A DNA stretch of 60,486 nt from Methanoregula sp. (lineage in GTDB: Archaea; Halobacteriota; Methanomicrobia; Methanomicrobiales; Methanospirillaceae), in contig NZ_JAQTQD010000017.1 of assembly GCF_028712425.1 (NCBI RefSeq), forward strand, positions 1 through 60,486, given 5' to 3'. Every line of letters begins with the position of its first letter. The stretch's first letter is position 1. Under the pieces are notes generated by a model. The model worked only from the letters and a program-made list of their open reading frames with translations, ran no database searches and was not told the DNA's origin. Of the stretch, positions 1 through 20,979 are shown one piece after another. Both the position numbers and the translations under genes were made by a program.

Positions 1-1168
1 TCTTCTCGTCCTTTCTCCTGATGCCCTGCTTCGAAAGGACTTCATCATCAACATCAGTATCTGTCAGATGGCAGTACGTCTCAAACATCCCTGTCCGGAT
101 GTTTCCCCACATCATTTTTTTGATAATCGTCTCGTTATATCCCTGCTGAACCATCGACGTGATTTTTGAATGCCGGAACAAATGCGGCGTGACTCGCTTA
201 CGAACACCGGCGCGCGCGGCGATCTTTTTCAACTGAAGAGCTATTCCCTCGTAGCGGAGCGGAAGGCGTTTATGAGATGTGAAAACCAGACCTTCGGATG
301 ATATAGCATACGGGTAATCATTTTTCCACTGGGCGAAATAGGGTGTAGCAGCTACGAGCCGGACGTACCGGGGTTTTTCAGTTTTCTTGTTAGTATTGAC
401 GATCATGCCGTAATTATCGATTTTGATTTGGCCCCACGTCAATGTCCCAATCTCTTCGATACGAAAACCGCCCTCATACAGCATTGCGAGAAGTGCCCGG
501 TCACGTGAGCTCATACACGCATCGATCATTTTGTGGACTTCATCTTCACTGAGCATCATCTCAGCAGTCTTGGTCATTGTGTCTGTACGGGGCACTTTGA
601 TCTCCCGGATATCATCCTTCATGAGCGGGGAATACCGGTGCTTGATCATCCAGAGATAAAACCGTTTGATGAAGTTCAGGAAATCCCTCTGGGTGTTCTG
701 CTTGTAGGGCCGGCCCTGAACTCTCGTATCCTTCATGTTGTTGATGCCCTGGTAGATGTCGGTAATGCTGTTTGTCGTGTATGGTGGAAGAAATCGTCTC
801 CATGTAATGAGCGTGAAAATGATTTTGTTCGCCCTTCCGGTGCTGATCCCCTTGGTAGCTTTCAGTTCCGAGATGAATGCCCTGATCAAGTGGGCATCTT
901 CCGGTGTTAGGCGTTTTTCTGCTGTAGCCCTGTCGATAGAATGATCTGCATACTCCGCTTTCTGGCAGTGAAACGCTCGGTCTCGGCTGGTGGGTGCAGG
1001 ATCAATCCCTTTTCTCATTGCACCGGCGAAATCCGTGTGCATATGGATTAAGCTGACGCTGGGAGAATGCGTTGGAAAACCTTTGGGGATTCTGGTCTGA
1101 AAAGAAGATGCTGCTATGGAGCTACCTTTTAGCTGGTTAGAATCCGCTTCATTCCAGCTTTTTTTCAT
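1..1168 (-). CDS. Tyrosine recombinase/integrase, C-terminus beyond window edge
   Basis: Reading the minus strand from an ATG at 1168 gives an open frame to the window edge. It is closely similar over its length to the integrase at 19,500-20,726, sharing blocks such as KATKGI.GRANKI, YKQNTQRDF, LYEGGFR.EEIG and TPHL.RHS.IT; the last is the HxxR catalytic region. It should cut and rejoin DNA at an attachment site. Other in-frame starts lie at 1042 and 1018; the domain proper begins near 1018. Codons upstream of 1107 cross a partial tRNA-Glu 3' end, so the first 18 or so codons probably belong to the neighbouring element and the gene may be a chimera formed by tandem integration. The C-terminal tyrosine is not clearly identified before the edge. 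Family call is firm; start is uncertain. Confidence 0.85.
   Translation of the reverse strand, partial: MKKSWNEADSNQLKGSSIAASSFQTRIPKGFPTHSPSVSLIHMHTDFAGAMRKGIDPAPTSRDRAFHCQKAEYADHSIDRATAEKRLTPEDAHLIRAFISELKATKGISTGRANKIIFTLITWRRFLPPYTTNSITDIYQGINNMKDTRVQGRPYKQNTQRDFLNFIKRFYLWMIKHRYSPLMKDDIREIKVPRTDTMTKTAEMMLSEDEVHKMIDACMSSRDRALLAMLYEGGFRIEEIGTLTWGQIKIDNYGMIVNTNKKTEKPRYVRLVAATPYFAQWKNDYPYAISSEGLVFTSHKRLPLRYEGIALQLKKIAARAGVRKRVTPHLFRHSKITSMVQQGYNETIIKKMMWGNIRTGMFETYCHLTDTDVDDEVLSKQGIRRKDEK
1107..1119. repeat. Partial tRNA-Glu 3' end, putative attL
   Basis: The 13 bases GATGCTGCTATGG are identical to 20,794-20,806, which hold the discriminator, acceptor 3' strand and part of the T stem of tRNA-Glu. 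About 28 further bases on the integrase side of each copy are similar but not identical (both contain GGGATTCT..CCTGA or a near match). No complete tRNA is present here. The arrangement fits the left boundary of an element integrated at the tRNA gene. The short identity means it could be coincidence, but the extended similarity and the shared reading frame argue otherwise. Confidence 0.65.
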
Positions 1169-1722: not shown

Positions 1723-2361
1723 CTACGTATCGTGTCTGCTCCTGACATTCGGCCCGATTAGCAGATACCTCTCCACGGTATCGATCCAGATCTTTTTTGC
1801 CACATTGATATCAATCTTCAGAACGTCGGAACTGGTGAGCAGGCCCATGGTCATCGCGATGATCATAGAGGCCGCCGTGTCTGGATCTACTTTTTGCAAC
1901 ATCACGCCCTGAGTTTTCACCCGTACAAGGCAATCACGGATGATGATCCGGTTATTGTCAAAAAGGTGAGTAAATTCTTCACGGTTTTTTGGATCCTGAC
2001 GCAATCGAATGGGCAACTGGAAGAAGATATTCGCATAAGGTTTTTGCTGCTCGAAGAGCAGTTCGGCAAGATCCCGGATAATCCGGTGTATATCGTTGTC
2101 ATACGCAAGTGTTGTTCCAAGCCCGGTCTGAATATTTCGGATCACTTCAAGGGTCACCTCGCGTAACAATGCCTCGCGGTTCTTGAAGTAACTGTAGAGT
2201 GCGGGTTTCGTAACACCAATATTTTGAGCAATCGCATCAAGCGTTACCGCATCCCATCCGTGTTCCGCTGCCACATTAAGAGCTGCGGCGATAATTTTCT
2301 TCTTCGCGTCCTGGCGATATTCCGAATGGTATTCTGTATTGATTCGTGACATCCTCATCAC
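1723..2361 (-). CDS. TetR/AcrR-family transcriptional regulator
   Basis: The 212-aa product has a TetR N-terminal helix-turn-helix at about residues 18-65 (KKKIIAAALNVAAEHGWDAV, then DAIAQNIGVTKPALYSYFKN), followed by a helical ligand-binding region. Such repressors normally bind small hydrophobic molecules and control neighbouring export genes. It is divergent from the RND exporter at 2,709, and a perfect 6-1-6 palindrome lies between them, so it probably represses the exporter operon and itself. Starts at 2361 (GTG), 2358 or 2352 are all possible because the N-terminus has clustered methionines. The ligand is unknown; a lipid or isoprenoid is only an inference from the operon. Confidence 0.9.
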   Translation of the reverse strand: MMRMSRINTEYHSEYRQDAKKKIIAAALNVAAEHGWDAVTLDAIAQNIGVTKPALYSYFKNREALLREVTLEVIRNIQTGLGTTLAYDNDIHRIIRDLAELLFEQQKPYANIFFQLPIRLRQDPKNREEFTHLFDNNRIIIRDCLVRVKTQGVMLQKVDPDTAASMIIAMTMGLLTSSDVLKIDINVAKKIWIDTVERYLLIGPNVRSRHDT

Positions 2362-2708: not shown

Positions 2709-5033
2709 ATGATCAAGGAACTCTTTGAAGGGATCGCGAATACGATCCTTAGGAGACCGAAGCTGGTTGCCAGCCTGATTTTTGTCCTTTTCTGTCTCGG
2801 TCTCTATGGCGTAACCATGCTCAGTATGCAGACTGGTTGGGAAACCTATATAGACAAGGATTCCCCCGACGGAGCCCTGCAAGCAAAATATGAAGATAAC
2901 TTCAAGACCGAGGCAATCATCCTCATTGTCGAAGCAGGCGACCCGCTGAGCCCGGATGTCCTTTCGTATATTGATACTCTTGAAAAAGATTTCCGGCAGC
3001 AACAGAATATCCGGAGCACACTCAGCATTGTCGATGTGCTGAAAAGTACCAATGGAGGTATCCTCCCTTCGAGCCAAGCGGAGACGGACCGTATCGTCAG
3101 TTTACTTCCCGAGAGTACCCGCAGCCAGCTCGTTCCTTCCAACGTGCTGACCCTCGTCCAGATCCAGCTTGCTCCGACATTATCCGAGACAGTCCAGAAG
3201 TCCGTGCTGGACAATGTGGCATCCATTATCGACAATTCCAACCCGCCACCAGGAGTGAAAGTGGAGATGTCCGGCACGCCTGCGTTCACTCAGCAGATGA
3301 AGGCAGGACTTACGAGTAACATGGGCATTCTTATTGGGGGAGCAATGATCCTGATGGTCATCACAATGGGGATCCTCTTCTCGTATGTCCGGTACCGGTT
3401 CATGCCAGTCGTCCTCGTCGGGATCGGCCTTGTGATCTCTCTCGGCCTGATGGGAATTGCCGGCATCAGCCTGAACATGGCGGTGATCGGCGCCTTCCCG
3501 GTCCTGATCGGCCTTGGGATCGATTACGCGATCCAGTTCCACGCCCGGTTCGACGAGGAGATCCGGAAGGGATCGATAGAGGATGCTGTTTTCATAACCG
3601 TCACCCGGACCGGCCCGGCGGTCATGTACGCGATGCTTGCCACCTGCATGGGTTTTCTTGCAATGTTTGTATCGGACGTCCCTATGATCCGTTCGTTCGG
3701 CCTTGTGGCGATTATCGGCATCTTCACCTGTTACTGGATCTCCTGCATCGGTATGCCGACACTTGCCCTCCTGCTGAAGTACCAGCCCAAGCAGCAAAAA
3801 ACCGACCAGTGTTATGCTGTGGGAACAGATGCGTGCAATACGATCATCGCGAACCCGGGGAAAAAAGGGAAGACCCGAAACGGGAAGAAGAGTTCTTTCT
3901 CTTACGGCCAGTTCCTCACGGATGTATCGGTAAAGATTGCTAAGAACCCGGTACCGGTCCTTCTCCTGGCCGGTCTTATCGCCCTGATCGGATTCCAGAT
4001 CGACCCGACCATTCCGGTGCAATCGGATGAGAACTCAATGGTTCCCACGGGTATGCCGGCTAAGATCAACATCGATAAGGTCACCCGCATCATGGGATCG
4101 ACCGATACCGCAGACTTCCTTGTCCAGGGCTCGCGCGTAACGGATCTCGATACCGTAATCTGGATGAAGGAGTTCCAGAAGTACGAACTGTCGCACCACC
4201 CGGAACTCACCGCATCCACGAGCATCGCTACCTATGTACTCCTATATAATGGCGGCATGATGCCGGAGACCCAGGCTGGGCTCGATGCCGTGCTGGGAAT
4301 GATCCCAGAGGAGACCAAAAAAACATATCTCAGCGGATCGATGTATGGGGTCATCAAATTCAACACAATAAAACTCCAGATGAAACAAAAAGACACGTTA
4401 AAGAAGCAGATGAACAAGGACATCGCGTTCCTCGAACCCCCGATTGGGATTACCATACATCCTGCAGGAAATTTTGAACTGTACACCAAGATACTGGGGT
4501 CCCTGTCGGATTCCAAGGAGACGATGACGTATCTTGGCTTCATTCTGGTCTTTGTCTTCCTCGTCCTCGTGTACCGGCACCTCCATGCAGTCTCACCGAT
4601 CATCCCGATCATTTTCGTCGTGGGCTGGAATGCCGTCATGATGTATTTCCTTAACATCGACTATACACCACTCACCGCTACGCTGGGATCAATGACTATC
4701 GGGGTGGCCGCAGAATACACCATTCTTGTGATGGAGCGATATGCTGAAGAAGAAGAGAGGACGCACAATCATCTTGCCGCTATCCAGGAGAGCGTGCAGA
4801 AGATTGGCACCGCGATAACAATCTCGGGACTTGCCACGTTCTTCGGGTTCTCGGCACTCTGCCTTGCGACATTTCCTATCATCAGCAACTTCGGCGTCAC
4901 CACCCTTATTGCCGTCGCGTTCTCCCTGATCGGTGCGATCTTCGTCATGCCCGCTGTCCTTTCCCTCATGGGGGGTCTTTCCGAATGGCTCGAAAAGAGA
5001 AAAACACACAGTACTCAAGGAGCGGGAGAATGA
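2709..5033 (+). CDS. RND-superfamily (HAE3/MMPL-type) membrane exporter
   Basis: The 774-aa protein has two RND halves. Each has one N-terminal helix (near residues 15-38 and 412-430), a large extracytoplasmic domain, then a bundle of five helices. The MMPL/HAE3 signature GLGIDYAIQFHARFDEE lies near residues 268-284 and its counterpart GVAAEYTILVMERYAEE near 664-680. Archaeal members are proton-driven exporters of hydrophobic molecules; bacterial relatives (MmpL, HpnN) move lipids and hopanoids. The gene follows the TetR operator and ends in an ATGA overlap with the next gene, so it heads the operon. In this setting a lipid or isoprenoid substrate is likely but unproven. Confidence 0.88.
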   Translation: MIKELFEGIANTILRRPKLVASLIFVLFCLGLYGVTMLSMQTGWETYIDKDSPDGALQAKYEDNFKTEAIILIVEAGDPLSPDVLSYIDTLEKDFRQQQNIRSTLSIVDVLKSTNGGILPSSQAETDRIVSLLPESTRSQLVPSNVLTLVQIQLAPTLSETVQKSVLDNVASIIDNSNPPPGVKVEMSGTPAFTQQMKAGLTSNMGILIGGAMILMVITMGILFSYVRYRFMPVVLVGIGLVISLGLMGIAGISLNMAVIGAFPVLIGLGIDYAIQFHARFDEEIRKGSIEDAVFITVTRTGPAVMYAMLATCMGFLAMFVSDVPMIRSFGLVAIIGIFTCYWISCIGMPTLALLLKYQPKQQKTDQCYAVGTDACNTIIANPGKKGKTRNGKKSSFSYGQFLTDVSVKIAKNPVPVLLLAGLIALIGFQIDPTIPVQSDENSMVPTGMPAKINIDKVTRIMGSTDTADFLVQGSRVTDLDTVIWMKEFQKYELSHHPELTASTSIATYVLLYNGGMMPETQAGLDAVLGMIPEETKKTYLSGSMYGVIKFNTIKLQMKQKDTLKKQMNKDIAFLEPPIGITIHPAGNFELYTKILGSLSDSKETMTYLGFILVFVFLVLVYRHLHAVSPIIPIIFVVGWNAVMMYFLNIDYTPLTATLGSMTIGVAAEYTILVMERYAEEEERTHNHLAAIQESVQKIGTAITISGLATFFGFSALCLATFPIISNFGVTTLIAVAFSLIGAIFVMPAVLSLMGGLSEWLEKRKTHSTQGAGE

Positions 5034-5452
5034 TCACCGTTCTGTATGTCGATACAGATCCGAAGATGTGGACAATTATTTCCCGTATCTTTGAAAAATA
5101 TGGGACGCTATCAGTATTTCCTGCGAGTTCCGGGGAAGAGGCACTCGCTTGGCTTTCTCAGTACCATGCAGACGTGATCGTATCTGACATTAATTTACCA
5201 GGAATGAGCGGGATCCAGTTCCTCCATACCCTGAGATCCAAAGGTATCTCCCTCCCTTTTATTTTTTTTTCAGAACGTGATAACCCCCGTCTGAGAAACG
5301 AGACATACATGGAAGATGTCTTCGGGTTCATTACCCGGAAAGGACTGGAGAAAAAACCGATCCTGAACCTATTGAGGCAGATCTATTGTGCAGCCGGTAG
5401 CCATGAGACGGCGTACCCGTGCAGCGATATGGAGCAGGGACATGGTACCTGA
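5030..5452 (+). CDS. Stand-alone response-regulator receiver domain 1
   Basis: The 140-aa product is a single REC domain: acidic pair in the VDTDP segment near the N-terminus, phospho-acceptor Asp in VIVSDINLPGMSG (about residue 54), and a Ser and a Lys (FFSERD, ITRKG) at the usual conserved positions. There is no output domain. The start is set at the ATG overlapping the exporter stop (ATGA), preceded by AAGGAG. Translational coupling to the exporter implies a shared function, perhaps signal-dependent control through protein contact. No histidine kinase lies in the element, so its partner must be elsewhere. Confidence 0.85.
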   Translation: MITVLYVDTDPKMWTIISRIFEKYGTLSVFPASSGEEALAWLSQYHADVIVSDINLPGMSGIQFLHTLRSKGISLPFIFFSERDNPRLRNETYMEDVFGFITRKGLEKKPILNLLRQIYCAAGSHETAYPCSDMEQGHGT

Positions 5453-5637
5453 CGGCAAGATCCCCAGTGAAAATGAAACCTGTGCAGGAATAATGACCGG
5501 CATCGTATTGAACAAGTCTGTCGGGAGACCACCGCGTACAATGCTATATGAAAATGTCGTGTTCTCATCTCTGCTGGTACAGGAAAAAGTCAGGTATCCC
5601 GGTCTGGGGTATCCATCGAACGGATAGTGTGAGATCC

Positions 5638-6057
5638 ATGCCTGCCATCTTGTTTGTCGATGATGATGAAGAGATCCTCACCCTCGGAAAATTATTCCTT
5701 GAGGGGTCGGGAACGATGACCGTTGATATCGTTACATCCGCCACTATGGCAATCGAGAAGCTCAGCCGCGGGAAGTATGATGCGATCCTGTCCGACTACC
5801 ACATGCCGGTTATGAACGGGATCGAATTACTGCACCGCGTCCGGGATGAGTTCGGGGATATCCCGTTTATACTATTCACTTGTGACGATGCACAGGAAAT
5901 ATTAACCGAAGCCCTCGAAAGCGGTGTGAATTACTGTATAGTGAAAAGTCCTGAACCAAAACACCAGTTCATGACACTGGGATACCTGCTTAGGCACCTT
6001 ATCAGACTTAGGCAAAGCCGGGACAAACAAAAGAAACCGAAGGTGCATGAACAATGA
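5638..6057 (+). CDS. Stand-alone response-regulator receiver domain 2
   Basis: The 139-aa single REC domain has acidic residues in LFVDDDEE (7-14), a phospho-acceptor Asp in AILSDYHMPVMNG, a conserved Thr in LFTCDD and a Lys in CIVKS. The start ATG at 5638 is chosen because the receiver fold begins at once; longer in-frame starts add unrelated residues. It overlaps the following radical SAM gene by ATGA, so the two are translationally coupled. It is a diverged paralogue of the receiver 185 bases upstream. Its role is unknown; with no DNA-binding domain it must act through another protein. Confidence 0.85.
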   Translation: MPAILFVDDDEEILTLGKLFLEGSGTMTVDIVTSATMAIEKLSRGKYDAILSDYHMPVMNGIELLHRVRDEFGDIPFILFTCDDAQEILTEALESGVNYCIVKSPEPKHQFMTLGYLLRHLIRLRQSRDKQKKPKVHEQ

Positions 6058-7664
6058 ACGCGGGTTACAAAATCGTACTTACCGCTGACAGAACTCTCAT
6101 GAGCGAGTATGCGGGAAACATTTTCTTTGGTTTTTCAGCCAGCGCCCCAAGAGGATTCCTACCAGACTGGTTCTATTTCCATTTTCTCTGCCCATCTGTC
6201 TCTGTAAACAGGGAGAATGGTGAAGCGTTTTACGCCCCGGTAGGATTGAGAAAGATTGAAGCGAAGCTTCTGGAATGTGGCTTTCACAGAGATGAAGTGA
6301 TTATTGCCCATCCGGATTACCTCAACAAGGCAATCGGCAGGGAGACGAAGGTAGTGAGCATAACCACGTTCGATCCTCTGGGAATTGGTCCCGTTACTTC
6401 TACATTTTCAAATCTTTTTGGCGGAGATAAGGCATACAACACTTACAAATTTTCTGAACTTATAAAAAAGCCAGTGCTGAAGAAGTACCATCCCAAAGTA
6501 GTTGTCGGGGGCCCGGGCGCATGGCAGTTGATGAATGAATGTGTGCAAAAAGTTTTTTTTGGAATCGATACCGTTGTCCTGGGCGAGGCAGAGAATACTG
6601 TCGGCCCATTATTTAAAGATGCAGTTGCAGGGAAGCCGTTGCCACGTCTGGTTAAGGCAATACCTGTAGGGGTCGAAGACATACCAAATGTTGTCGGGCC
6701 GACGATCTGCGGTCTTGTCGAAGTCTCAAGGGGATGCGGCAGAGGATGTGATTTCTGTAATCCGGCTCTTACGCAGCTGAAGTCCCGGCGCATTGATGCT
6801 ATTTTGGAGGATGTTAAAGTTAATGTCCGGCATGGACGTGATTCCGTAATCCTCCATTCTGAAGACATTTTCAGATATGGGGCAACCGGGATTTATCCGA
6901 ATCAACAGTCTGTTGAGAACCTGTTCAAAGCGGTTCTGCAGACAGAAGGTGTGAGGAAGGTAGCAGTCAGCCATGGGGCTTTTGCTTCCATAGTGTCTGC
7001 ACCCACGATGTTACCAAATATAAGCGAGATGATGCATCTGGACAAGAGAAACTGGAGAGGATACCAGGTCGGACTTGAGACTGGCAGCCCAAGACTTCTG
7101 AAAAATCACATGGCGGGCAAGTGCAAACCGTTTGCACCGGAGGAGTGGCCTGAAGTCGTCAGACAGGCAACAGGAATCTCCAATGATGCAAACTGGTTCC
7201 CTGTCTCTACTCTCATCATCGGTTTACCCGGTGAGACCTCCGATGACATCATGAAAACGCTGGAACTGGCAGACGACCTAGCAAAATACCAGATAATGAT
7301 TTATCCGCTTCTTGCGGTTCCCACCGGAAGACTATCAGAGAAAGACTGTACTGTGAAGGAGAACCTACTGCCCGAACATGTGGAACTTTTCCTCAGGTGC
7401 TGGGAGATTAGCCTTGAACTCTGGCCTAAGACATTCAAAGATATATCGGGAGGGTTGAGGTATTCCTTCATCGAAAAAGCAATGTTGAGAACCTTATTGA
7501 ACATCGGCGTTTCTTGGTCGTTAAGAAAAATTCAAACCTGTAAATCCAGCTTTCAGGATAAACAACCTTTTAAAATCGGTAAAAACACATTTCAGGTTTC
7601 CAACCAGGGTAAACTCATGTCTGTTATTTCAACCGGGTCATCCAGCAGGTACGAGGGGGGCTGA
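6054..7664 (+). CDS. B12-binding radical SAM protein, GrsA/GrsB-like
   Basis: The 536-aa protein has an N-terminal cobalamin-binding-type Rossmann region (about 1-200, with VVVGGPGAW) and a radical SAM core with the cluster motif C228-x3-C232-x2-C235 (SRGCGRGCDFCNPA), followed by STLIIGLPGET. The N-terminus (KIVLTADRTLMSEY, then FFGFSASAPRGF) resembles from memory the archaeal family containing the GDGT ring synthases GrsA/GrsB, which form cyclopentane rings in membrane lipid chains. Another C-C bond-forming lipid activity in the same family is equally possible. It is coupled to the receiver upstream (ATGA) and abuts the next gene (TGA then ATG). Radical SAM with B12 domain is certain; the lipid substrate is inferred from family and context. 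Confidence 0.8.
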   Translation: MNAGYKIVLTADRTLMSEYAGNIFFGFSASAPRGFLPDWFYFHFLCPSVSVNRENGEAFYAPVGLRKIEAKLLECGFHRDEVIIAHPDYLNKAIGRETKVVSITTFDPLGIGPVTSTFSNLFGGDKAYNTYKFSELIKKPVLKKYHPKVVVGGPGAWQLMNECVQKVFFGIDTVVLGEAENTVGPLFKDAVAGKPLPRLVKAIPVGVEDIPNVVGPTICGLVEVSRGCGRGCDFCNPALTQLKSRRIDAILEDVKVNVRHGRDSVILHSEDIFRYGATGIYPNQQSVENLFKAVLQTEGVRKVAVSHGAFASIVSAPTMLPNISEMMHLDKRNWRGYQVGLETGSPRLLKNHMAGKCKPFAPEEWPEVVRQATGISNDANWFPVSTLIIGLPGETSDDIMKTLELADDLAKYQIMIYPLLAVPTGRLSEKDCTVKENLLPEHVELFLRCWEISLELWPKTFKDISGGLRYSFIEKAMLRTLLNIGVSWSLRKIQTCKSSFQDKQPFKIGKNTFQVSNQGKLMSVISTGSSSRYEGG

Positions 7665-9560
7665 ATGTCATTTAAACGAATTTTACTGGTAAAACCATCG
7701 GGAAGAAAAGGATTAGGTTTTGCCTCCGATGTGATACCCATTGGTCTTGAATACATTGCCGCCTCAGTAGAGGACATCGTTGATGAGGTTAATATCATCG
7801 ACCTGGACATGGAACAGAATTCTCTTCACTATTTTCTCAATGCTCATAATCCCGATTTGGTCGCTATCACGATGTCGGCAACCGACCATGTGGAAGGTCT
7901 GCATCTCGCAAAAATCGCAAAGATGAACGGATGTACAACTGTTTTAGGTGGCTATCACCCGACCGCCATACCTGATGAGCTGCTGTTATACCCGCAGGTT
8001 AATTTGATTGTCCGGGGTGAAGGCGAATATACGATGAGGGAGCTGGTTCAGAAGGACTCTTTCAGAGATATCCCTGGCCTGTCCTACAAAGAGAATGGAA
8101 AAATAATTCACAACAGGGCTCGTCCGCTTATTAAGGATTTAGATGCTCTGCCATTTCCGGCCCGGCATCTGAGAAGACATGAATATAAAAATCACGTAAT
8201 AATCGAGAAGGGCAGGGTGAGGGAAGTGATCACCATGTCCAGGGGATGCTGGGGGCGGTGCAGTTTCTGTTGCGAACCTATGATGTGCCGAGGGTATCAA
8301 CGATTTCGCTCTCCTAAAAACGCGATGGAAGAACTGCTGGAGATCGTATCCATCCACAAGGGGCGACCCCTATCCATCTTTGTAACGGATCCGAACTTTA
8401 TGGGTTTTCCTCAGGGGGTTGATCACTTCTGTGATCTGTTACATCAAGAGAAATTGGACATTAAGTTCTCAGTCCTTGTCAGAGCGGACAGTGTTGTAAA
8501 GAATCCTGCAATTATTAGGAAGATGTGCGAGAACGGGATCCGAACTTATGAGATGGGAATTGAAAGTCCAAAAGCCGATGATCTGAAGGAAATCCGGAAA
8601 AACATAACCCAGGAGATGCAGGAAAAAGCCGTGAAAATATTGGCAGGGAATGGTGCATGGATCGGAGGAACCTTCGTTATCGGCCTGCCCGGCCAGACCG
8701 AAGAGGAAATAAAGCGATTCCCCCTTTACGCCAGAGAGATCGGATTAACCGGTGCAGCTTTCGGGGTGGCTACACCGTTCCCGGGAACTGATTTCTATAA
8801 AAAACTGGATCAGGAAGGTTTGATCGTTGAACGTGACTGGACCAAGTATGATGAAATGCATGCCGTATTCGAATTGGAACATGTGACTAGACAGAGGCTT
8901 GAGGAACTTTCGACCTATTGCCATGCCAAGTTCTGGACATTGGACGCGTTTCTCAGGCAGACCAGTAATTCTCTGGGACCTGGAGAAAAAATAGCTCTGG
9001 AAGATTTTATTGGTGATGTTCTCAACGCTTTGAGGTTTAGCTGGAATACAACGGCGGATCTCCAGACAGAGAATCTTCCCAACCATCGGCTGATTGCTAT
9101 TAAAGCTGGTGCAGACCCATGTGTCGAGAAGTATACACGGGATGTTGGCGTACACAATCTAATAGAATTTCCCAAGTATTTACTCATGATATTAGGGGAA
9201 CAGAGAATTCAGTTTACTATCACTTGTAAAGGCGTGCCTATTACAAGTTATATCATAAAAACCACCGCGAGCTCCGTAGAGTACGTGACGGCGGTACCAG
9301 GAAAGATGGACGACACGACCATCAATCTGGATGTTGATCTCAATGACGTAGATCTGTCAAATGGCGACACCAGTAACAGGGAGTTCCTGAAAAATTGTAT
9401 CCGGGCGACATTCTCTGTCCGTGGGATCGATGAGGTGTGGTATAGGACGAGGTTGCTTACCGCGATAGGTCTTGGATCGACACAATTAATCATTGGTAAG
9501 AATTTCAGGACGCTAGAAAGAGCGGGAAATTATGTTCGTGCCATCGGGGTGCCGAAATGA
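7665..9560 (+). CDS. B12-binding radical SAM protein with SCP2-like C-terminus
   Basis: The 631-aa protein has a cobalamin-binding domain (1-150; PIGLEYIAASVED and VLGGYHPT are typical) and a radical SAM core with C195-x3-C199-x2-C202 (SRGCWGRCSFCCEP), GIES and FVIGLPGQTEEE motifs, as in BchE/HpnP-like enzymes. The last 130 residues resemble a sterol-carrier-protein-2 fold (QFTITCKGVPITSYIIKTTA near 514, followed by a paired acidic beta segment). SCP2 domains bind lipids, so the enzyme may methylate or rearrange a lipid held by its own carrier domain. It starts directly after the preceding stop and ends in an ATGA overlap with the next gene. The SCP2 call is by eye and moderate. Confidence 0.8.
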   Translation: MSFKRILLVKPSGRKGLGFASDVIPIGLEYIAASVEDIVDEVNIIDLDMEQNSLHYFLNAHNPDLVAITMSATDHVEGLHLAKIAKMNGCTTVLGGYHPTAIPDELLLYPQVNLIVRGEGEYTMRELVQKDSFRDIPGLSYKENGKIIHNRARPLIKDLDALPFPARHLRRHEYKNHVIIEKGRVREVITMSRGCWGRCSFCCEPMMCRGYQRFRSPKNAMEELLEIVSIHKGRPLSIFVTDPNFMGFPQGVDHFCDLLHQEKLDIKFSVLVRADSVVKNPAIIRKMCENGIRTYEMGIESPKADDLKEIRKNITQEMQEKAVKILAGNGAWIGGTFVIGLPGQTEEEIKRFPLYAREIGLTGAAFGVATPFPGTDFYKKLDQEGLIVERDWTKYDEMHAVFELEHVTRQRLEELSTYCHAKFWTLDAFLRQTSNSLGPGEKIALEDFIGDVLNALRFSWNTTADLQTENLPNHRLIAIKAGADPCVEKYTRDVGVHNLIEFPKYLLMILGEQRIQFTITCKGVPITSYIIKTTASSVEYVTAVPGKMDDTTINLDVDLNDVDLSNGDTSNREFLKNCIRATFSVRGIDEVWYRTRLLTAIGLGSTQLIIGKNFRTLERAGNYVRAIGVPK

Positions 9561-10633
9561 GGATTACTGAGCGTGTCATCTCTGCAAAGAAATGTGTCAG
9601 GGACAAGATGAGAAAGATTCGGCGAACCTACACTCTAATACGAGAACTCAGTTCCATCGATGGGGATAATATAAATCGTAAATTTCTGGATAGGGTGATG
9701 TTTAGCGTTGAGACCCTGCCTCCCCTGGGGAAAGAGTACTGGTGGTTGCTGTTCTTTGGCAGAGATGGGAGACAGATGATGGTACTGGTTTACCGGAAAT
9801 TCGGGAGAACCATGGTCTTCAACGGACAGAATGTTGTATTCTGGAAGACAGAACATGGTGCATTCCGGGCGGTGACAACCAGTTGGATCTGTGATGGAAA
9901 GGAACTACACGATCTTGGAGTCACCAACCCTGTAATAGTATCTTCCAATAGAGTGAAAGCATTAGTTTCCAGAATCTCCGACCAGAAGTTGATCTTCAAG
10001 GGGAAGTTTCCCGAATACGAACTTGAGATAGGTGACCTTGTTCATCTTAAAATGACAGAAGGCAATTCTTCTGAAAATAAATGTGCCTATGGTGTTTACC
10101 TTCCTCCCTTTGGAGCAGGATGGATCGATATTTTCACAAACGCTGAGGGAACTGTGATGGGAAAAGAGTTTGTGGGAACCGCCCATTTACAAAAAGTCGT
10201 TGGCGTCATGCCCTATGGATCGTTCCATTGGGCACGAGTGGTCTTTCAAAACAATTCGATATTCTCGTTTTTCTGCCTGAAAACCGGGGAAAAATCAACA
10301 AGGTATTTCCATATCTCTATGAACTTCTATGATCACCATGCCCGAAAGTATATCCGGTTCAGGAAACCACGATTGAAAATTTCAGAGAAAAAGGAAAGAA
10401 TTACAACGTGGAATATTGAGGGACGGGACGAAGAAAATGAACTCAGGATTGTGCTGGTGTCGTATGCGGAAAAAAAATTCACCATGCATGGGGGGGGTTC
10501 CCAGACATATATAGAGTATGCAGTAACACCTGCCGAATTCATGCTGAAAACCAAAGATAAAACAATTACGTTGAAGGATTTGGGGGAGGGGATTGGCTCA
10601 TTTGAGGATGCGTATGGTTCGCCGGGATTCTAA
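9557..10633 (+). CDS. Beta-rich protein of unknown function, possibly lipocalin/AttH-like
   Basis: This 358-aa protein is translationally coupled to the radical SAM gene before it (ATGA). It is rich in aromatic residues and alternating hydrophobic beta-strand patterns (KEYWWLLFFGRDGRQMMVLV near residue 55, GSFHWARVVF near 223, IYFRAW-free C-terminal strands). The double-barrel pattern is reminiscent of AttH/carotenoid 1,2-hydratase-like proteins, which hydrate isoprenoid double bonds, but the characteristic motifs are not clear and I do not assign it. No signal peptide or membrane segment is evident, so it is probably cytosolic. The last gene of the first transcriptional block, it is followed by about 100 bases without a gene. 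Confidence 0.6.
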   Translation: MRITERVISAKKCVRDKMRKIRRTYTLIRELSSIDGDNINRKFLDRVMFSVETLPPLGKEYWWLLFFGRDGRQMMVLVYRKFGRTMVFNGQNVVFWKTEHGAFRAVTTSWICDGKELHDLGVTNPVIVSSNRVKALVSRISDQKLIFKGKFPEYELEIGDLVHLKMTEGNSSENKCAYGVYLPPFGAGWIDIFTNAEGTVMGKEFVGTAHLQKVVGVMPYGSFHWARVVFQNNSIFSFFCLKTGEKSTRYFHISMNFYDHHARKYIRFRKPRLKISEKKERITTWNIEGRDEENELRIVLVSYAEKKFTMHGGGSQTYIEYAVTPAEFMLKTKDKTITLKDLGEGIGSFEDAYGSPGF

Positions 10634-10871: not shown

Positions 10872-11083
10872 TTCAGTTGTCTCTCGATAAATCTAGAAAA
10901 CGACCGACAGTTCGTCGCTCAATATGCGGATACTGCGGGTGCTGTGTAATGGTGTGTCCTGAAGGTGCACTGGAGCTGATCGATGTGTATCTTGATGTCA
11001 GTGCAGTATGTTCCGGCTGCGGAATCTGTGTTAAGGTATGCCCTTTGGGTGCATTGGAGGTCATCGATGAAGTCAAAGTATGA
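10868..11083 (+). CDS. 2[4Fe-4S] ferredoxin
   Basis: The 71-aa protein has two classic cluster motifs, [12 protein letters not shown] (about residues 20-31) and [12 protein letters not shown] (about 49-60), separated by the usual symmetrical linker. It should carry low-potential electrons. It lies between the 46-aa gene (ATGA overlap) and the geranylgeranyl reductase (16-base overlap), and the radical SAM Tes homologue follows. It is therefore probably the dedicated electron donor for prenyl-chain reduction, for radical SAM clusters, or for both. Methanogen geranylgeranyl reductases are known to work with adjacent ferredoxins. Confidence 0.93.
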
Positions 11084-12263
11084 TCTGCTGGTAGTTGGCG
11101 GGGGACCCGGAGGAGCTCTTGCTGCACGGACCGCAGCAGAGAAGGGACTTTCTACCTGTCTGCTAGAGAAACGGCCGGCCATTGGGGTACCAGTCCGATG
11201 TGCGGAGGGGATCGGAAAGGAAGCTCTTGTAGAGTATGTGAAACCTAATCCCAGTTATATATCAGCCGAGATTAACCGAGCGGAACTGGTCGCTCCGGAT
11301 GGAACGTCACTGATCCTTGAGTCCAGAGTTGTAGGAAGCAAGGTCGGGTATGTTTTAGACCGCAAAATCTTTGATCGTTGTCTGGTGGCACAGGCAGCCG
11401 ATGCCGGTGCCGATGTGATGGTCAAGACAAGGGCTGTCGCTCCGCTTATCACAGATGGTGTGGTGAATGGTGCCATTCTGGAACAACAGGGAAAGAATAC
11501 ACCCGTCACGGCGGATGTTGTTATCGCAGCTGATGGCGTTGAGTCAAAATTTGCCCGGTGGTGTGGTATTGATACTACCGTTCCTGTGCGGGAGGCCATG
11601 ACCTGCGCCCAGTATCTCATGACGGGTCTTGACATTGAGGAGCACACCACGGTCTTTTATCTTGGCAACGAGATCGCCCCCAATGGATATCTGTGGGTAT
11701 TCCCGAAAGGGGGAAGAACCGCTAATGTGGGGATCGGCATTTCAGGAAAGAACAGCAGAGCGGGTCATCGGGCGAAAGACTACCTTGACCGGTTCGTTCA
11801 CACCCGCTTCCCGGAGGGAAAAATTATCGAACAAATTGTCGGAGGAGTCCCGGTCTGCAAACCACTCCCCTGCACTGCTGCTGATGGTCTTCTGATTGCG
11901 GGTGATGCAGCCCGGGTGGTGGACCCGCTTACAGGAGGAGGCATTTACAATGCAATGTATACCGGGAAGCTCGCCGCAGAAACAGCAGTAAATGCGATCT
12001 CTCGCGGAAATGTGTCAAAAGACGCACTGGGAAATTACGATACAATGTGGCGGACTTCTTCGTTTGGTAAAAGCCTTTACCGGAACTGGCAGATCAAGGA
12101 GTATTTCATCACACTTTCTGACATGAAACTGAATGCGCTGGTTCAATCTGCAACGACTCTTGATCTCGAGAATTTCAGCACTCTTAATATCATAAAGGAA
12201 TTGATGAAGCGGAATCCCGGGCTTATACCCGAACTGGCGATGCTCAAACTTGGACTGGGATGA
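11067..12263 (+). CDS. Geranylgeranyl reductase family flavoprotein
   Basis: With the start at 11067 (ATG after GGAGGT) the product is 398 aa, the usual family length; it overlaps the ferredoxin by 17 bases. The FAD-binding [17 protein letters not shown] motif is at residues 8-24, the family [11 protein letters not shown] motif follows near 42, and a [19 protein letters not shown] motif lies near 275. These enzymes saturate the geranylgeranyl chains of archaeal membrane lipids, taking electrons from ferredoxin. A methanogen normally has a core copy, so this island copy may be a specialised paralogue acting on other isoprenoids such as quinone-like or cross-linked lipids. Confidence 0.9.
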
Positions 12264-12285: not shown

Positions 12286-13755
12286 TTGATAAAGATAAAA
12301 AAAACACGGAGCCTTTGCCCTGTATGCAATACCATTCTTGAGGCAGATATTATCGAGGACCGGGGACAGGTCTGGCTGGAACGGACATGTCCGATTCATG
12401 GCATGTCCCGGAATCTTTACTGGTCGGATGCCGCAATGTATCACCGGTATGATAAGTATGAAACCGTGGGTAACGGCATCGAAAATCCTCAGAAGATTGC
12501 CCCACCCGAAAGCTGCCCGGCGTCCTGCGGGTTGTGCAGCAACCACCATTCGCAGACTCTGCTTGCGAATATCGACCTTACAAACCGCTGCAACCTGAAC
12601 TGCGATTTCTGTTTTGCCAATGCCCGGGCATGTGGGTTCGTATATGAACCGGCATTTGATGAGGTCGTAACAATGATGCAAATGCTAAGGGCTCAAAAAC
12701 CCATACCTGTACCTGCTGTACAGTTCTCTGGTGGAGAACCCACAATGCGGGATGACCTTGTAAAAATCATCAAAAAAGCAAAGGAGATGGGATTCCCGCA
12801 GGTTCAGATTGCAACAAACGGGATCAGGATTGCAAAAGAACCTGAACTGGCTCGTCAGCTCAGGGACGCAGGACTCAGTACCATCTACCTCCACTTTGAC
12901 GGGATTTCCAAAGAGACCAACCCGTTTCTCGCGATTCATAAAAAGGCAATTGAGAACCTGAATAAAGTAGGTCTTGGTGTGGTCCTCGTGCCTACGGTTA
13001 TACGGGGAAGAAATGATCACGAAGTCGGGGATATCATCCGGTTTGCAGCCAGGAATATTTCTGTCATCCGCGGTGTGAATTTCCAGCCGGTTGCATTTAC
13101 CGGTGCTGCACGTGAAGAGGATGTCAGGAAAGCACGAATCACCATTCCCGATCTTCTGGCAGGTATTGAGATGCAGATGGAAGGCGTTATAAAAAAAGAT
13201 GATTTCTACCCGGTTCCCTGCGTGATTCCGTTCTCGAATCTTGTCGAAGCATATACCGGGAGGCCCCAGGTCAGGTTCACCGCTCACCAGCATTGCGGCG
13301 CAGCAACCTATATATTTGTCCAGCATGATGGATCAGTCGTTCCAGTGAACCGGATGGTAGATGTGGACAACTTCTTTGAATCCATCGGGCAGATGGCAGA
13401 AACACTCGAAAAAGGCGGCACCATCAATAAATACAAAGCACTTCTCGAAGGGGTCAAAAATATGCACGACTCGGTCAAGAATGGCGAGCAGGGAAATACA
13501 ACAGATTTCTGGAAGATGATCGGCAAAATCCTGATCGGGCAGAACTTCGATGCTCTCCGGGAGTTCCACCAGAATGCGCTGTTCATCGGGACCATGCATT
13601 TCATGGACCGGTACAACTATGATCTCGGGCGTGTTCAGCGGTGCTGCATTCATTACGCAACCCCGGATGGACGTTTGATTCCCTTCTGTACCTATAATAG
13701 TGGCCCAGTATACAGAGAGCTGGTTTGGAAAAAGTACGCAAAGAAAAACTCGTGA
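12286..13755 (+). CDS. Radical SAM protein of the tetraether synthase (Tes) type
   Basis: The start is TTG at 12286, set by GAGGTG seven bases upstream and by the absence of a better ATG. The 489-aa protein has an N-terminal rubredoxin-like metal site (C11, C14, C35 and the CPIHG segment), a second Cys group (C77, C81, C84) and the radical SAM cluster C102-x3-C106-x2-C109 (NRCNLNCDFCF). QFSGGEPTMRDD and a Cys-bearing C-terminal region follow. This multi-cluster layout matches Tes (MJ0619 type), which couples the ends of two archaeol chains to make tetraether lipids. It lies 22 bases after the reductase gene. A role in a variant C-C coupling is possible; the orthologue/paralogue question needs a tree. 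Confidence 0.8.
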   Translation: MIKIKKTRSLCPVCNTILEADIIEDRGQVWLERTCPIHGMSRNLYWSDAAMYHRYDKYETVGNGIENPQKIAPPESCPASCGLCSNHHSQTLLANIDLTNRCNLNCDFCFANARACGFVYEPAFDEVVTMMQMLRAQKPIPVPAVQFSGGEPTMRDDLVKIIKKAKEMGFPQVQIATNGIRIAKEPELARQLRDAGLSTIYLHFDGISKETNPFLAIHKKAIENLNKVGLGVVLVPTVIRGRNDHEVGDIIRFAARNISVIRGVNFQPVAFTGAAREEDVRKARITIPDLLAGIEMQMEGVIKKDDFYPVPCVIPFSNLVEAYTGRPQVRFTAHQHCGAATYIFVQHDGSVVPVNRMVDVDNFFESIGQMAETLEKGGTINKYKALLEGVKNMHDSVKNGEQGNTTDFWKMIGKILIGQNFDALREFHQNALFIGTMHFMDRYNYDLGRVQRCCIHYATPDGRLIPFCTYNSGPVYRELVWKKYAKKNS

Positions 13756-13992: not shown

Positions 13993-15645
13993 ATGGTCAT
14001 GCAGATCCAAAGGTTCTCGGAGATCATCGAGATCCTTGGCAAATACGGTTTTAACATCGCCTTGGAGAAACTGTTCCCGGGGTATTCTCGCGTACGATTG
14101 CCGTTTCACGGAGTTTCTCCTGAACCGTCCACCATGTACGAACGGATGCGACTTGCCATCGAGGAACTCGGTCCGACCTTCGTGAAGCTCGGGCAGATCA
14201 TGAGCACGCGGACGGACATCTTACCCCAGGAGATGATCAGGGAACTCAAAAAATTGCAGGATAATGTAAAACCCGTGCCATTCTCAGAAATTTATCCGGT
14301 GATCGAAGAGCAGTGCCCGGGCTTCGATACATGGTTCCGGGAGATCGACGAGATCCCGGTAGCCTCCGCCTCGATTGCTCAGGTTCATAGTGCAATCCTC
14401 AGGGACGGGACCCAGGTTGCCCTCAAAATCCAGCGCCCGGGTATCGGGCAAGTCATAGAGACCGATCTCCGTATCCTACAGTCGATGGCGGAACGGGTCG
14501 AACGGGTCTTCCCCGAAGCCCGGATCTACAACCCGACCGGCATGGTGAAGGACTTCGCGCACCAGATACGAAAAGAGCTGGATTTCCGGGAGGAGGCAAA
14601 GACTTCGGAACGGATGAAACAGAACTTCAGGGAGGTATCCGGCATCCACTTCCCGAAGATATATCGGGAGTACTCATCATCCCGTATACTCGTCATGGAG
14701 TTCGTCGAGGGGGTCCGGATCGATAATCTGAAAGAGATCACCGCCATGGGACTTGACCCGCATGAGATCGGGGAGAGAGGTTTTCATGCATACCTTAAGA
14801 TGATCTTCGAAGACGGCTTCTTCCATGGCGATCCGCACCCGGGCAACCTGCTCGTTACGAAGGATGGTACTATCGTCGTCTTGGATTTCGGGATTGCCGG
14901 GACCATCCGCCCGGAAAAGCGGCAGAATTTCATCAACTTCCTCTTCGCCTTGATGAACAAGGACACGGATTTGATGATAAAGTCCCTGGAAAAATTCGGG
15001 GTCGTAATACCTGCTGAAAACCGGGAGCCGCTACAGGACGATCTCTTTGTCCTGATACAGGACTTGGGTCTCGATCAGAACATCTCCCGGTTCAATTTTC
15101 CGCTGTTCGTGGCCGAGCTCTCGGAAGTAATGCGCCATTACAGGATCAAGGTGCCGATGAACCTGATGCTCCTTTTAAAGGTCCTTGTCATGATACTCGA
15201 TATCGGCGTCCATCTCAACCCGGAGTTTAACATTGAGCAAGAACTCTCCCCATTTCTCGTGAGAATCGCACAGAAAAATACCTTCTCCGCCACCAGTGCA
15301 AAAAAGGCATCCGTCTCACTGCTGGAGACCACTGATGCGGTTCTCGATATGCCCCGTCATCTCAACCTGATGCTGAATCGGTTCTCTTCGGGAACGTTTC
15401 GTCTGGAACTTGTCGATAAGGATATTCGGGAATTTCAGACTGCGCTCGACTCGGCAAGCGACAAGTTGATGCTCGGTCTGGTTGTCGGATCGCTTGTCGT
15501 AGGGTCTTCGCTGGTCCTCTCGTCCAACCCTTTGCCCCTTCCCCCGGAGGTCTCATGGCTGGCGGTTGCTGGATATAGTGCTGCAGCCTTGACGGTGCTC
15601 TATGTAGTATACCATGTCATCTACCTGAGGTTCCGGGAGCGGTGA
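13993..15645 (+). CDS. AarF/ABC1/UbiB-family atypical kinase
   Basis: The 550-aa protein shows the UbiB-family signatures: FVKLGQIMSTRTDILP (KxGQ motif, near 60), VALKIQRPGI (nucleotide-binding Lys, near 145), HGDPHPGNLLV (near 277) and VLDFGIAG (metal-binding). Two hydrophobic segments near the C-terminus (about 495-515 and 520-543) anchor it in the membrane. Relatives in bacteria, mitochondria and archaea are ATPases or kinases needed for isoprenoid quinone or lipid metabolism and lipid homeostasis. Its place at the end of the island cargo supports a role with isoprenoid lipids. It is flanked by short direct repeats and separated from Tes by 237 bases, so it may have its own promoter. Confidence 0.88.
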   Translation: MVMQIQRFSEIIEILGKYGFNIALEKLFPGYSRVRLPFHGVSPEPSTMYERMRLAIEELGPTFVKLGQIMSTRTDILPQEMIRELKKLQDNVKPVPFSEIYPVIEEQCPGFDTWFREIDEIPVASASIAQVHSAILRDGTQVALKIQRPGIGQVIETDLRILQSMAERVERVFPEARIYNPTGMVKDFAHQIRKELDFREEAKTSERMKQNFREVSGIHFPKIYREYSSSRILVMEFVEGVRIDNLKEITAMGLDPHEIGERGFHAYLKMIFEDGFFHGDPHPGNLLVTKDGTIVVLDFGIAGTIRPEKRQNFINFLFALMNKDTDLMIKSLEKFGVVIPAENREPLQDDLFVLIQDLGLDQNISRFNFPLFVAELSEVMRHYRIKVPMNLMLLLKVLVMILDIGVHLNPEFNIEQELSPFLVRIAQKNTFSATSAKKASVSLLETTDAVLDMPRHLNLMLNRFSSGTFRLELVDKDIREFQTALDSASDKLMLGLVVGSLVVGSSLVLSSNPLPLPPEVSWLAVAGYSAAALTVLYVVYHVIYLRFRER

Positions 15646-19499: not shown

Positions 19500-20726
19500 T
19501 TAAGCCCCTGCCGTTAGTTTCTGCCGGACCATATTCATGATCATCTTGTATTCCGGTGTTGCTTCGATATCGTGTTTCAACTGCTCCAGCCCCTGCTGGG
19601 CTTCATTGGTCAAGGGTTGACCGCATACCGAACAGAATTCAAAGGTTGGCGCGTTGATGGTGTTGCAATTGATACACTGCCGGACATCCATTGCAGTTGA
19701 TCGCGATTTTCCGGCTCGCCGGATACCCTGCCGTTCAAGCATCTCGTTATCGATATCCTCGTCGGTAAGGTGAAGGTATGTTGGGAACATCGTCGTATTG
19801 AGGTTTCCCCACATGGTTTTCTTGACAGTCGATTCGTTATACCCTTTTTTAATCATCTCGGTTATTCGGGAATGACGAAGGAGGTGCGGCGTTATCCTCT
19901 TCTGGATGCCGGCGCGCTTTGCAATTTTCTTGAGCTGCATTGCAACAGCGGCATACTGGAGGGGAAATTTTTGAACGGAGACAAAGACCAGCGATTCGGG
20001 CGTTGCAGTGAACGGGTAATCGTTCTTCCACTGAACCAGATACGGGGTAGCGGCAAGAAGCCGGACATATCGCGGGCTCCCCGTCTTTTCATCGACATTG
20101 ATGATAGTGCCGTACTCGTCGAATTTTACCTGTCCCCACGTAAGCCGGCCTATCTCCTCACACCTGAATCCGCCTTCGTACAACGTCGATATGATCGCCC
20201 TGTCCCGCGAATTCTGGCAGGCTTCGATCATGGCGCGGATCTCCTCTTCCGTCAGCATCATCTGGGCAGTCTTGGTCATCCTGTCCGATCTGGGTGCTTT
20301 AATCTCTCTGATCTCGTCAACCGGCACTGAAGAGAAGCCCTTTTTGTTGAGCCAGCGGTAAAAGCGTTTTATCACCAGCATGAAATCCCGCTGGGTGTTC
20401 TGCTTGTATGGTGCGCCGTTATACTGTCGGGATTCGCGCAATTTCTCAACTCCGCGGTACAGGTCGGATATGGTATTCGCCTGGAACGGGCCAAGGAAAT
20501 TCCTCCATGTAACGAGCGTAAAAATGATTTTGTTGGCCCGCCCAGCCCCGATTCCCTTTGTTGCTTTGATCTCCGCGATGAAGTCCCGGATCAGCCGGGC
20601 ATCGTCAGCAGTCAGCTTGCCCCGGTTGGTGGCATTGGTGATGGAGTGATCGGCATACACGGTCTTCGGATTATGGAACGGACGCATATGCCGGGTCGGT
20701 GCCTGCTGTTTTCGTGCCGGTGTCAC
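19500..20726 (-). CDS. Tyrosine recombinase/integrase with C-terminal zinc ribbon
   Basis: The 408-aa protein has an N-terminal SAM-like core-binding domain (about 30-150) and a catalytic domain with LYEGGFRCEEIGRL (first Arg), TPHLLRHSRITEM (HxxR) and a Tyr in MFPTYLHLTDED as the likely nucleophile. A zinc ribbon, CINCNTINAPTFEFCSVCG, follows at about 351-369 and may bind DNA or protein. The start shown is GTG 20726, but the frame stays open through the tRNA-Glu 3' end. In an excised circle the frame would join an ATG from the other end of the element. It should catalyse integration at tRNA-Glu and excision. The call is firm. Confidence 0.93.
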   Translation of the reverse strand: MTPARKQQAPTRHMRPFHNPKTVYADHSITNATNRGKLTADDARLIRDFIAEIKATKGIGAGRANKIIFTLVTWRNFLGPFQANTISDLYRGVEKLRESRQYNGAPYKQNTQRDFMLVIKRFYRWLNKKGFSSVPVDEIREIKAPRSDRMTKTAQMMLTEEEIRAMIEACQNSRDRAIISTLYEGGFRCEEIGRLTWGQVKFDEYGTIINVDEKTGSPRYVRLLAATPYLVQWKNDYPFTATPESLVFVSVQKFPLQYAAVAMQLKKIAKRAGIQKRITPHLLRHSRITEMIKKGYNESTVKKTMWGNLNTTMFPTYLHLTDEDIDNEMLERQGIRRAGKSRSTAMDVRQCINCNTINAPTFEFCSVCGQPLTNEAQQGLEQLKHDIEATPEYKMIMNMVRQKLTAGA

Positions 20727-20795
20727 GTCACATGGGTTCCCGGTCTTACGGAAAAACGTATCCTGAGCTTTAGGGATTCTAACCTGAGAAAAGGA

Positions 20796-20870
<75 letters not shown>

Positions 20871-20979
20871 AAATTGTCCTACTTAATTTCTCGCATCGTC
20901 ATAAATAGGTTATGGAGGAGGAAACGCCATCACCATGCGGGCCCTCCCGGAAGATCAAAAACCGGTTTTTCAAAAAATG

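Follow-up and report, generated by a model that had tools for sequence, protein, structure and literature searches.

A Grs-family radical SAM protein encoded beside lipid genes on an integrative element of Methanoregula sp.

Introduction

Ring-bearing GDGTs are read as markers of temperature and source, and there is debate over which organisms make them. Does a methanogen carry a mobile gene for closing such rings? The question is raised by one open reading frame in the window, by which we mean the whole analyzed stretch of 60,486 nucleotides from Methanoregula sp. A sequence-only reading had proposed that this frame encodes an island-borne radical SAM protein like GrsA and GrsB, the GDGT ring synthases, which it regarded as known from Thermoproteota. 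We compared the protein with its relatives, placed it in a phylogeny, and analyzed the surrounding genes (Table 1).

Table 1. Features of the window discussed in the text
Feature	Coordinates	Strand	Remarks
Second integrase	14..997	-	Incomplete at the contig end; 61% identity to the first integrase
Second copy of the 13-bp att core	1107..1119		Exact repeat; left end of the 19.7-kb element
TetR-family regulator	1723..2361	-	Divergent from the MMPL gene
MMPL/HAE3-family RND transporter	2709..5033	+	
Response-regulator receiver protein 1	4985..5452	+	True start probably near the MMPL stop
Response-regulator receiver protein 2	5548..6057	+	Its stop and the grs start share 4 bp
Grs-family radical SAM protein P0001, 536 aa	6054..7664	+	ORF, motifs, homology, tree, model
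rSAM2, second B12-binding radical SAM protein, 631 aa	7665..9560	+	Resembles HpnJ/BchE/HpnR below curated cut-offs
U358, 358-aa protein without family assignment	9557..10633	+	54-57% identical homologues in ANME-1 and Hadesarchaea
Geranylgeranyl reductase (GGR) family protein, extra copy	11070..12263	+	ORF open from 10983
Tes2, second tetraether synthase	12286..13755	+	NF045702, 736.8 bits (cut-off 450)
UbiB/ABC1 atypical kinase family protein	13993..15645	+	
Tyrosine recombinase, phage integrase family	19500..20726	-	Adjoins tRNA-Glu
att core at the tRNA 3' end	20794..20806		GATGCTGCTATGG
tRNA-Glu (TTC)	20793..20871	-	Integration site

Results

P0001 and the Grs family

The frame encoding P0001 was intact and began with ATG. 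The two N-terminal motifs singled out earlier (residues 6-19, KIVLTADRTLMSEY, and residues 24-35, FFGFSASAPRGF) and the CxxxCxxC radical-SAM cysteines C228/C232/C235 were all found as described, and the three cysteines were invariant in alignments of relatives. The ATG of grs and the stop of the receiver 2 gene shared 4 bp, the start of the rSAM2 gene abutted the grs stop, and rSAM2 in turn overlapped the U358 gene by 4 bp. Such spacing suggests that these genes form an operon with translational coupling. That grs is a real gene follows from its full-length homologues across Archaea (31-48% identity) and from purifying selection on the neighbouring operon genes.

A search with P0001 of the genome identified as Sulfolobus acidocaldarius gave only two strong matches, at 1,353,681-1,355,024 (E 4e-80, P0001 residues 5-450) and 199,442-200,860 (E 4e-75, residues 5-482), and the next match was at 4e-11. 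By locus-tag order, we take the two to be Saci_1585 and Saci_0240, respectively. Saci_1585 is GrsA and Saci_0240 is GrsB (PMC8473941). The methods of a later paper name SACI_RS01165 as GrsA and SACI_RS07560 as GrsB (PMC13109099), an assignment that by locus order looks swapped relative to the former. P0001 was 36% identical to GrsA and 33% identical to GrsB. It kept 88 of the 144 positions that are identical between these two proteins, and 32 of 32 near-invariant family columns, counted as those with a conservation of 95% or more over 81 archaeal members. A separate stretch of S. acidocaldarius (1831014-1831394) lay in a 401-aa open frame (L258) without a radical SAM part and matched P0001 residues 59-199 only (38%, E 4e-11).

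Pfam assigned the radical SAM domain (PF04055) to P0001, with the B12-binding domain (PF02310) below threshold. No NCBIfam equivalog cut-off was reached, the best profile being TIGR04013, far below its cut-off; GrsA and GrsB gave the same sub-threshold profile with the same best hit. The AlphaFold model (pLDDT 83, pTM 0.85) showed a B12-radical-SAM fold with two long C-terminal helices, residues 440-467 and 472-501. Long C-terminal helices have been singled out as a feature of GrsA (PMC11186832). Searching the PDB directly with the P0001 sequence returned matches to the radical SAM core only, and a scan of IMG/VR returned no relatives. Judged by sequence, P0001 belongs over its full length to the Grs (GDGT ring synthase) family. 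The proposed kinship with GrsA and GrsB was thus borne out by full-length homology to both and by the kept family residues, and the host is indeed a methanogen.

Phylogeny and distribution

We searched P0001 against 392 genomes of the window's phylum. The matches fell into two groups with a clear gap between them: full-length homologues at E <1e-87 (plus fragments), and a group at about 1e-10 that represents a different, TIGR04013-like family. Over all searches, full-length homologues were widespread in ANME-1, Archaeoglobaceae, Methanothrix, Methanosphaerula, Methanohalobium, and Thermoplasmata; we take genomes among these to be those of Methanosphaerula palustris, Methanothrix thermoacetophila, Archaeoglobus profundus, and Methanohalobium. 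Named loci with Grs homologues came from Methanophagales, Methanothrix, Methanosarcina Ant1, Bathyarchaeota, Hadesarchaea, Nitrosopumilus, and Thermoplasmata. The earlier premise of Grs as a trait of Thermoproteota is thus out of date, since full-length homologues are widespread in the lineages listed above. GrsA/B homologues in ANME-1, Thermoplasmatota, and Methanopyrus had already been published (PMC13109099, PMC8473941). To find a Grs homologue in a methane-cycling euryarchaeon is therefore neither unusual nor a first.

In a maximum-likelihood tree of 80 rows, which did not resolve the root of the Grs family, P0001 fell into a clade of 26 sequences (support 96/95) beside the GrsA and GrsB clades. 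This clade comprised ANME-1, Archaeoglobaceae, Methanothrix, Methanosphaerula, and Methanohalobium sequences and one Bathyarchaeota copy. The tree thus assigns P0001 to a third, mostly euryarchaeal Grs clade. Its branch was long (0.85) and its placement within the clade weak (80/39), with no exact sister resolved. An AU test rejected joining P0001 to the GrsA clade (p 3e-62); joining it to the GrsB clade was not rejected (p 0.155), and the best tree placed it outside GrsB. The phylogeny with Saci_1585 and Saci_0240 that the sequence-only reading had called for hence keeps P0001 within the Grs family, yet outside GrsA and, in the best tree, outside GrsB. The outcome named in advance as refuting, placement in a clade apart from Grs whose chemistry is unrelated, did not occur, although the P0001 clade is separate from that of GrsA. 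Our literature search found no reported activity for any member of the third clade.

Grs-family proteins were also seen on contigs binned as bacterial, from Sedimentisphaerales, Phycisphaerae, Planctomycetota, and Acidobacteria (L148, L151, L152, L155, and L160). Three of them (L148, L151, and L152) form a long separate branch. These proteins may close rings in bacterial tetraethers; alternatively, the contigs may have been wrongly binned.

A cassette of lipid genes around grs

The array runs from a divergent TetR gene through MMPL/HAE3, two receivers, Grs, rSAM2, U358, GGR, and Tes2 to UbiB. Its second Tes, GGR, and second B12-radical-SAM protein provide the strongest evidence for a lipid role, and they were absent from the earlier note. 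According to its NCBIfam equivalog match, Tes2 is a full tetraether synthase, and it matched structure 7tol with an E value of 1e-150. The genome's own Tes, encoded on another contig, is 79% identical to Tes2, and another GGR in the genome is 65% identical to the cassette GGR.

Neither Pfam nor NCBIfam matched U358, and a sequence search of the PDB gave nothing significant. Its structure model was poor (pLDDT 44). A VIA-align comparison of residues 218-340 only gave a borderline match to 25-phosphosteroid lyase (Z 8.2, rmsd 4.0, 108 aligned). Homologues of about 30% identity were present in Methanosarcinaceae and Methanocella; the neighbours of those in Methanosarcina and Methanocella, checked by eye and against the window's genes, showed no lipid context.

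We counted Tes copies above the threshold used in 24 same-genus genomes. Only the present genome (G000) and G019 had two, and the array was likewise found in these two. Their full Tes2 copies were sisters (support 99), apart from all housekeeping copies. In G019, the MMPL gene, both receivers, and rSAM2 followed the same order, and the GGR, Tes2, and TetR genes lay on a second contig. Between the two species, dN/dS was approximately 0.11 for Tes2, 0.13 for MMPL, 0.17 for both rSAM2 and GGR, and 0.36 for receiver 2, showing that the cassette genes neighbouring grs are under purifying selection. The grs gene of G019 has shrunk to 92 codons, with some 20 codons from its N-terminal end joined in frame to the last 70 or so. 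The site of the reduced gene is on contig 7, at about 3553-3832 (L012/L069). It could be a natural deletion, possibly via GG-rich microhomology, or an assembly error. In a third genome, G012, the sole Tes match was a Tes2-like fragment at a contig end (contig 432, 8139-8681, L294) with 82% identity to Tes2, and this genome is perhaps another carrier of the cassette.

Conserved partners in other archaea

The partners of grs recur elsewhere. In an ANME-1 genome (G303), Grs is followed by homologues of rSAM2 (54%) and U358 (56%); Grs is linked to rSAM2 in "Euryarchaeota bin.505" and to U358 in Hadesarchaea, and UbiB and MMPL genes flank it in several ANME-1 genomes. The Grs copies that ANME-1 and Hadesarchaea carry next to rSAM2 or U358 fall in a different Grs subclade, and an AU test rejected the union of P0001 with it (p 0.014). 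The cassette therefore did not simply arrive as a single unit transferred whole, and for grs the same test speaks against movement of grs-rSAM2-U358 as one block from an ANME-1-like donor. The gene order is common but the ring synthase differs, so either one gene was exchanged or the array was assembled twice independently. This combination is the most puzzling feature of the locus.

The integrative element

The first integrase gene reads away from tRNA-Glu, which ends at 20793. The 13 bases at the tRNA 3' end are repeated exactly at the far left of the window, just upstream of the second integrase, with further similarity alongside. The locus thus has both an integrase beside a tRNA and direct att repeats at both ends, and the cassette sits in the 19.7-kb element between the att copies. 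The G+C content of the element is mostly 40-53%, compared to 55-60% in the flank. The description of the gene as island-borne is supported by tRNA-Glu, the adjacent phage-type integrase, and the att copy near a second, related integrase. The element probably stands in tandem with another at the same tRNA-Glu, its neighbour being cut off at the contig end.

Discussion

The analysis shows that P0001 belongs to the Grs family, keeps its cofactor residues, and has a predicted fold of the matching type; it also shows the make-up of the cassette, its signs of mobility, and its co-distribution with Tes2. On these grounds we favour, with some confidence, the reading that P0001 is a third-clade Grs enzyme that works in a mobile, TetR-adjacent cassette for membrane-lipid remodelling and forms cyclopentane rings in the Tes2 product. 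The ring chemistry, substrate, step order, and regulation that we infer are as follows. The extra GGR would saturate the isoprenoid chains, and Tes2 would join chain ends to give a tetraether or macrocyclic archaeol. Grs, with its [4Fe-4S] cluster and SAM, would make a 5'-deoxyadenosyl radical that takes hydrogen from an unactivated chain carbon, and an intramolecular C-C bond would then close a cyclopentane ring with the loss of 2 H per ring. Further changes to the lipid may come from rSAM2, U358, and the UbiB-like kinase; its transport may fall to MMPL, and TetR may regulate the array. Our literature search found no lipid data for Methanoregula, including none on ring-bearing GDGTs, and we know of no report of a ring-bearing GDGT from this genus.

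A Grs-family lipid enzyme could also have a different chemistry or substrate, for example making rings or cross-links in macrocyclic archaeol, or carrying out a step that needs rSAM2 and U358. We consider this somewhat unlikely but the reading to be weighed most seriously against ring formation. The separation of the P0001 clade from GrsA (AU p 3e-62) and the recurrence of rSAM2 and U358 beside Grs in several lineages are consistent with it. In addition, grs genes of ANME-1 have been linked to abundant macrocyclic PE-archaeols in which rings are possible (PMC13109099), and a second Tes copy, MA_1114, made macrocyclic archaeol only (PMC8941075). However, P0001 keeps all family-invariant residues, and ANME-1, which has members of the third clade, makes ordinary ring-bearing GDGT-1: its biofilm lipids include this compound, and its genome encodes several grs genes (PMC13109099). 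A bolder and unlikely proposal is that the cassette makes an undescribed lipid, a ring-bearing tetraether or macrocyclic archaeol altered by rSAM2 and by the UbiB-like kinase acting with U358, in a chemistry common to ANME-1 and Hadesarchaea and spread by integrative elements. The C-terminal beta-domain of U358 is weakly like 25-phosphosteroid lyase, whose substrate bears a phosphorylated tertiary alcohol on an isoprenoid side chain. A literature search returned no paper on a hydroxyarchaeol hydratase.

That grs might be in decay, or travel with the element as a gene without function, is quite improbable. The long terminal branch of P0001 would fit such a passenger, as would the G019 homologue, cut short by an in-frame deletion while its neighbours were kept; yet the frame is intact with every near-invariant residue in place, its start and stop are coupled to the adjoining genes, and neighbouring cassette genes are under purifying selection. 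Still less probable, to the point of being very doubtful, is a B12-radical-SAM enzyme with a non-lipid role, modifying Mcr like MgmA or tRNA like MiaB. The closest solved fold is indeed MgmA (9ccb, Foldseek E 8e-18), followed by MiaB, but identity to these proteins is merely 16-19%, the full-length family is Grs, and the surrounding genes are lipid genes. The NCBIfam equivalog cut-offs were far missed (46.9 of 360 bits for MgmA and 34 of 355 for MiaB), and on these values together with the low identity we reject an MgmA- or MiaB-like function of P0001.

With ring formation in the Tes2 product as the favoured reading, the unusual point is the setting of the gene in a mobile element among lipid genes, not the presence of Grs in methane-cycling archaea, and the mobile tetraether-plus-ring cassette is more interesting than the Grs homologue taken alone. 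Species may thereby pass on ring-bearing lipids as one package. A mobile unit of Tes, Grs, and saturation genes would let them appear patchily in mesophilic methanogens, which would weaken the assignment of lipid sources from core phylogeny. The array also points to rSAM2, U358, UbiB, and MMPL, partners of Grs in several lineages of Archaea, as candidates for lipid roles, and G019 provides a natural comparison in which grs is deleted.

Comparison with known systems places P0001 as follows. It shares its full-length family and conserved residues with GrsA and GrsB, and has the C-terminal helices known from GrsA, but differs in belonging to a separate clade and in being island-borne beside Tes2, GGR, and a second B12-radical-SAM gene. 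The GMGT synthase Gms likewise uses radical SAM chemistry, forming a C-C bond in GDGT chains; it is of the SPASM type with another domain make-up (PMC11186832), whereas P0001 has a B12-binding-like domain instead. Tes2 passes the NCBIfam Tes equivalog as do the known Tes proteins (MJ0619 and MA_1486), but it is an extra, mobile copy beside the genome's own. Finally, the Grs proteins of ANME-1, Methanothrix, Archaeoglobaceae, and Methanosphaerula palustris share the third clade with P0001 at 38-48% identity, whereas P0001 lies on a long, deep branch and within an integrative element and cassette, and its cassette partners rSAM2 and U358 correspond to the genes next to another Grs copy of ANME-1.
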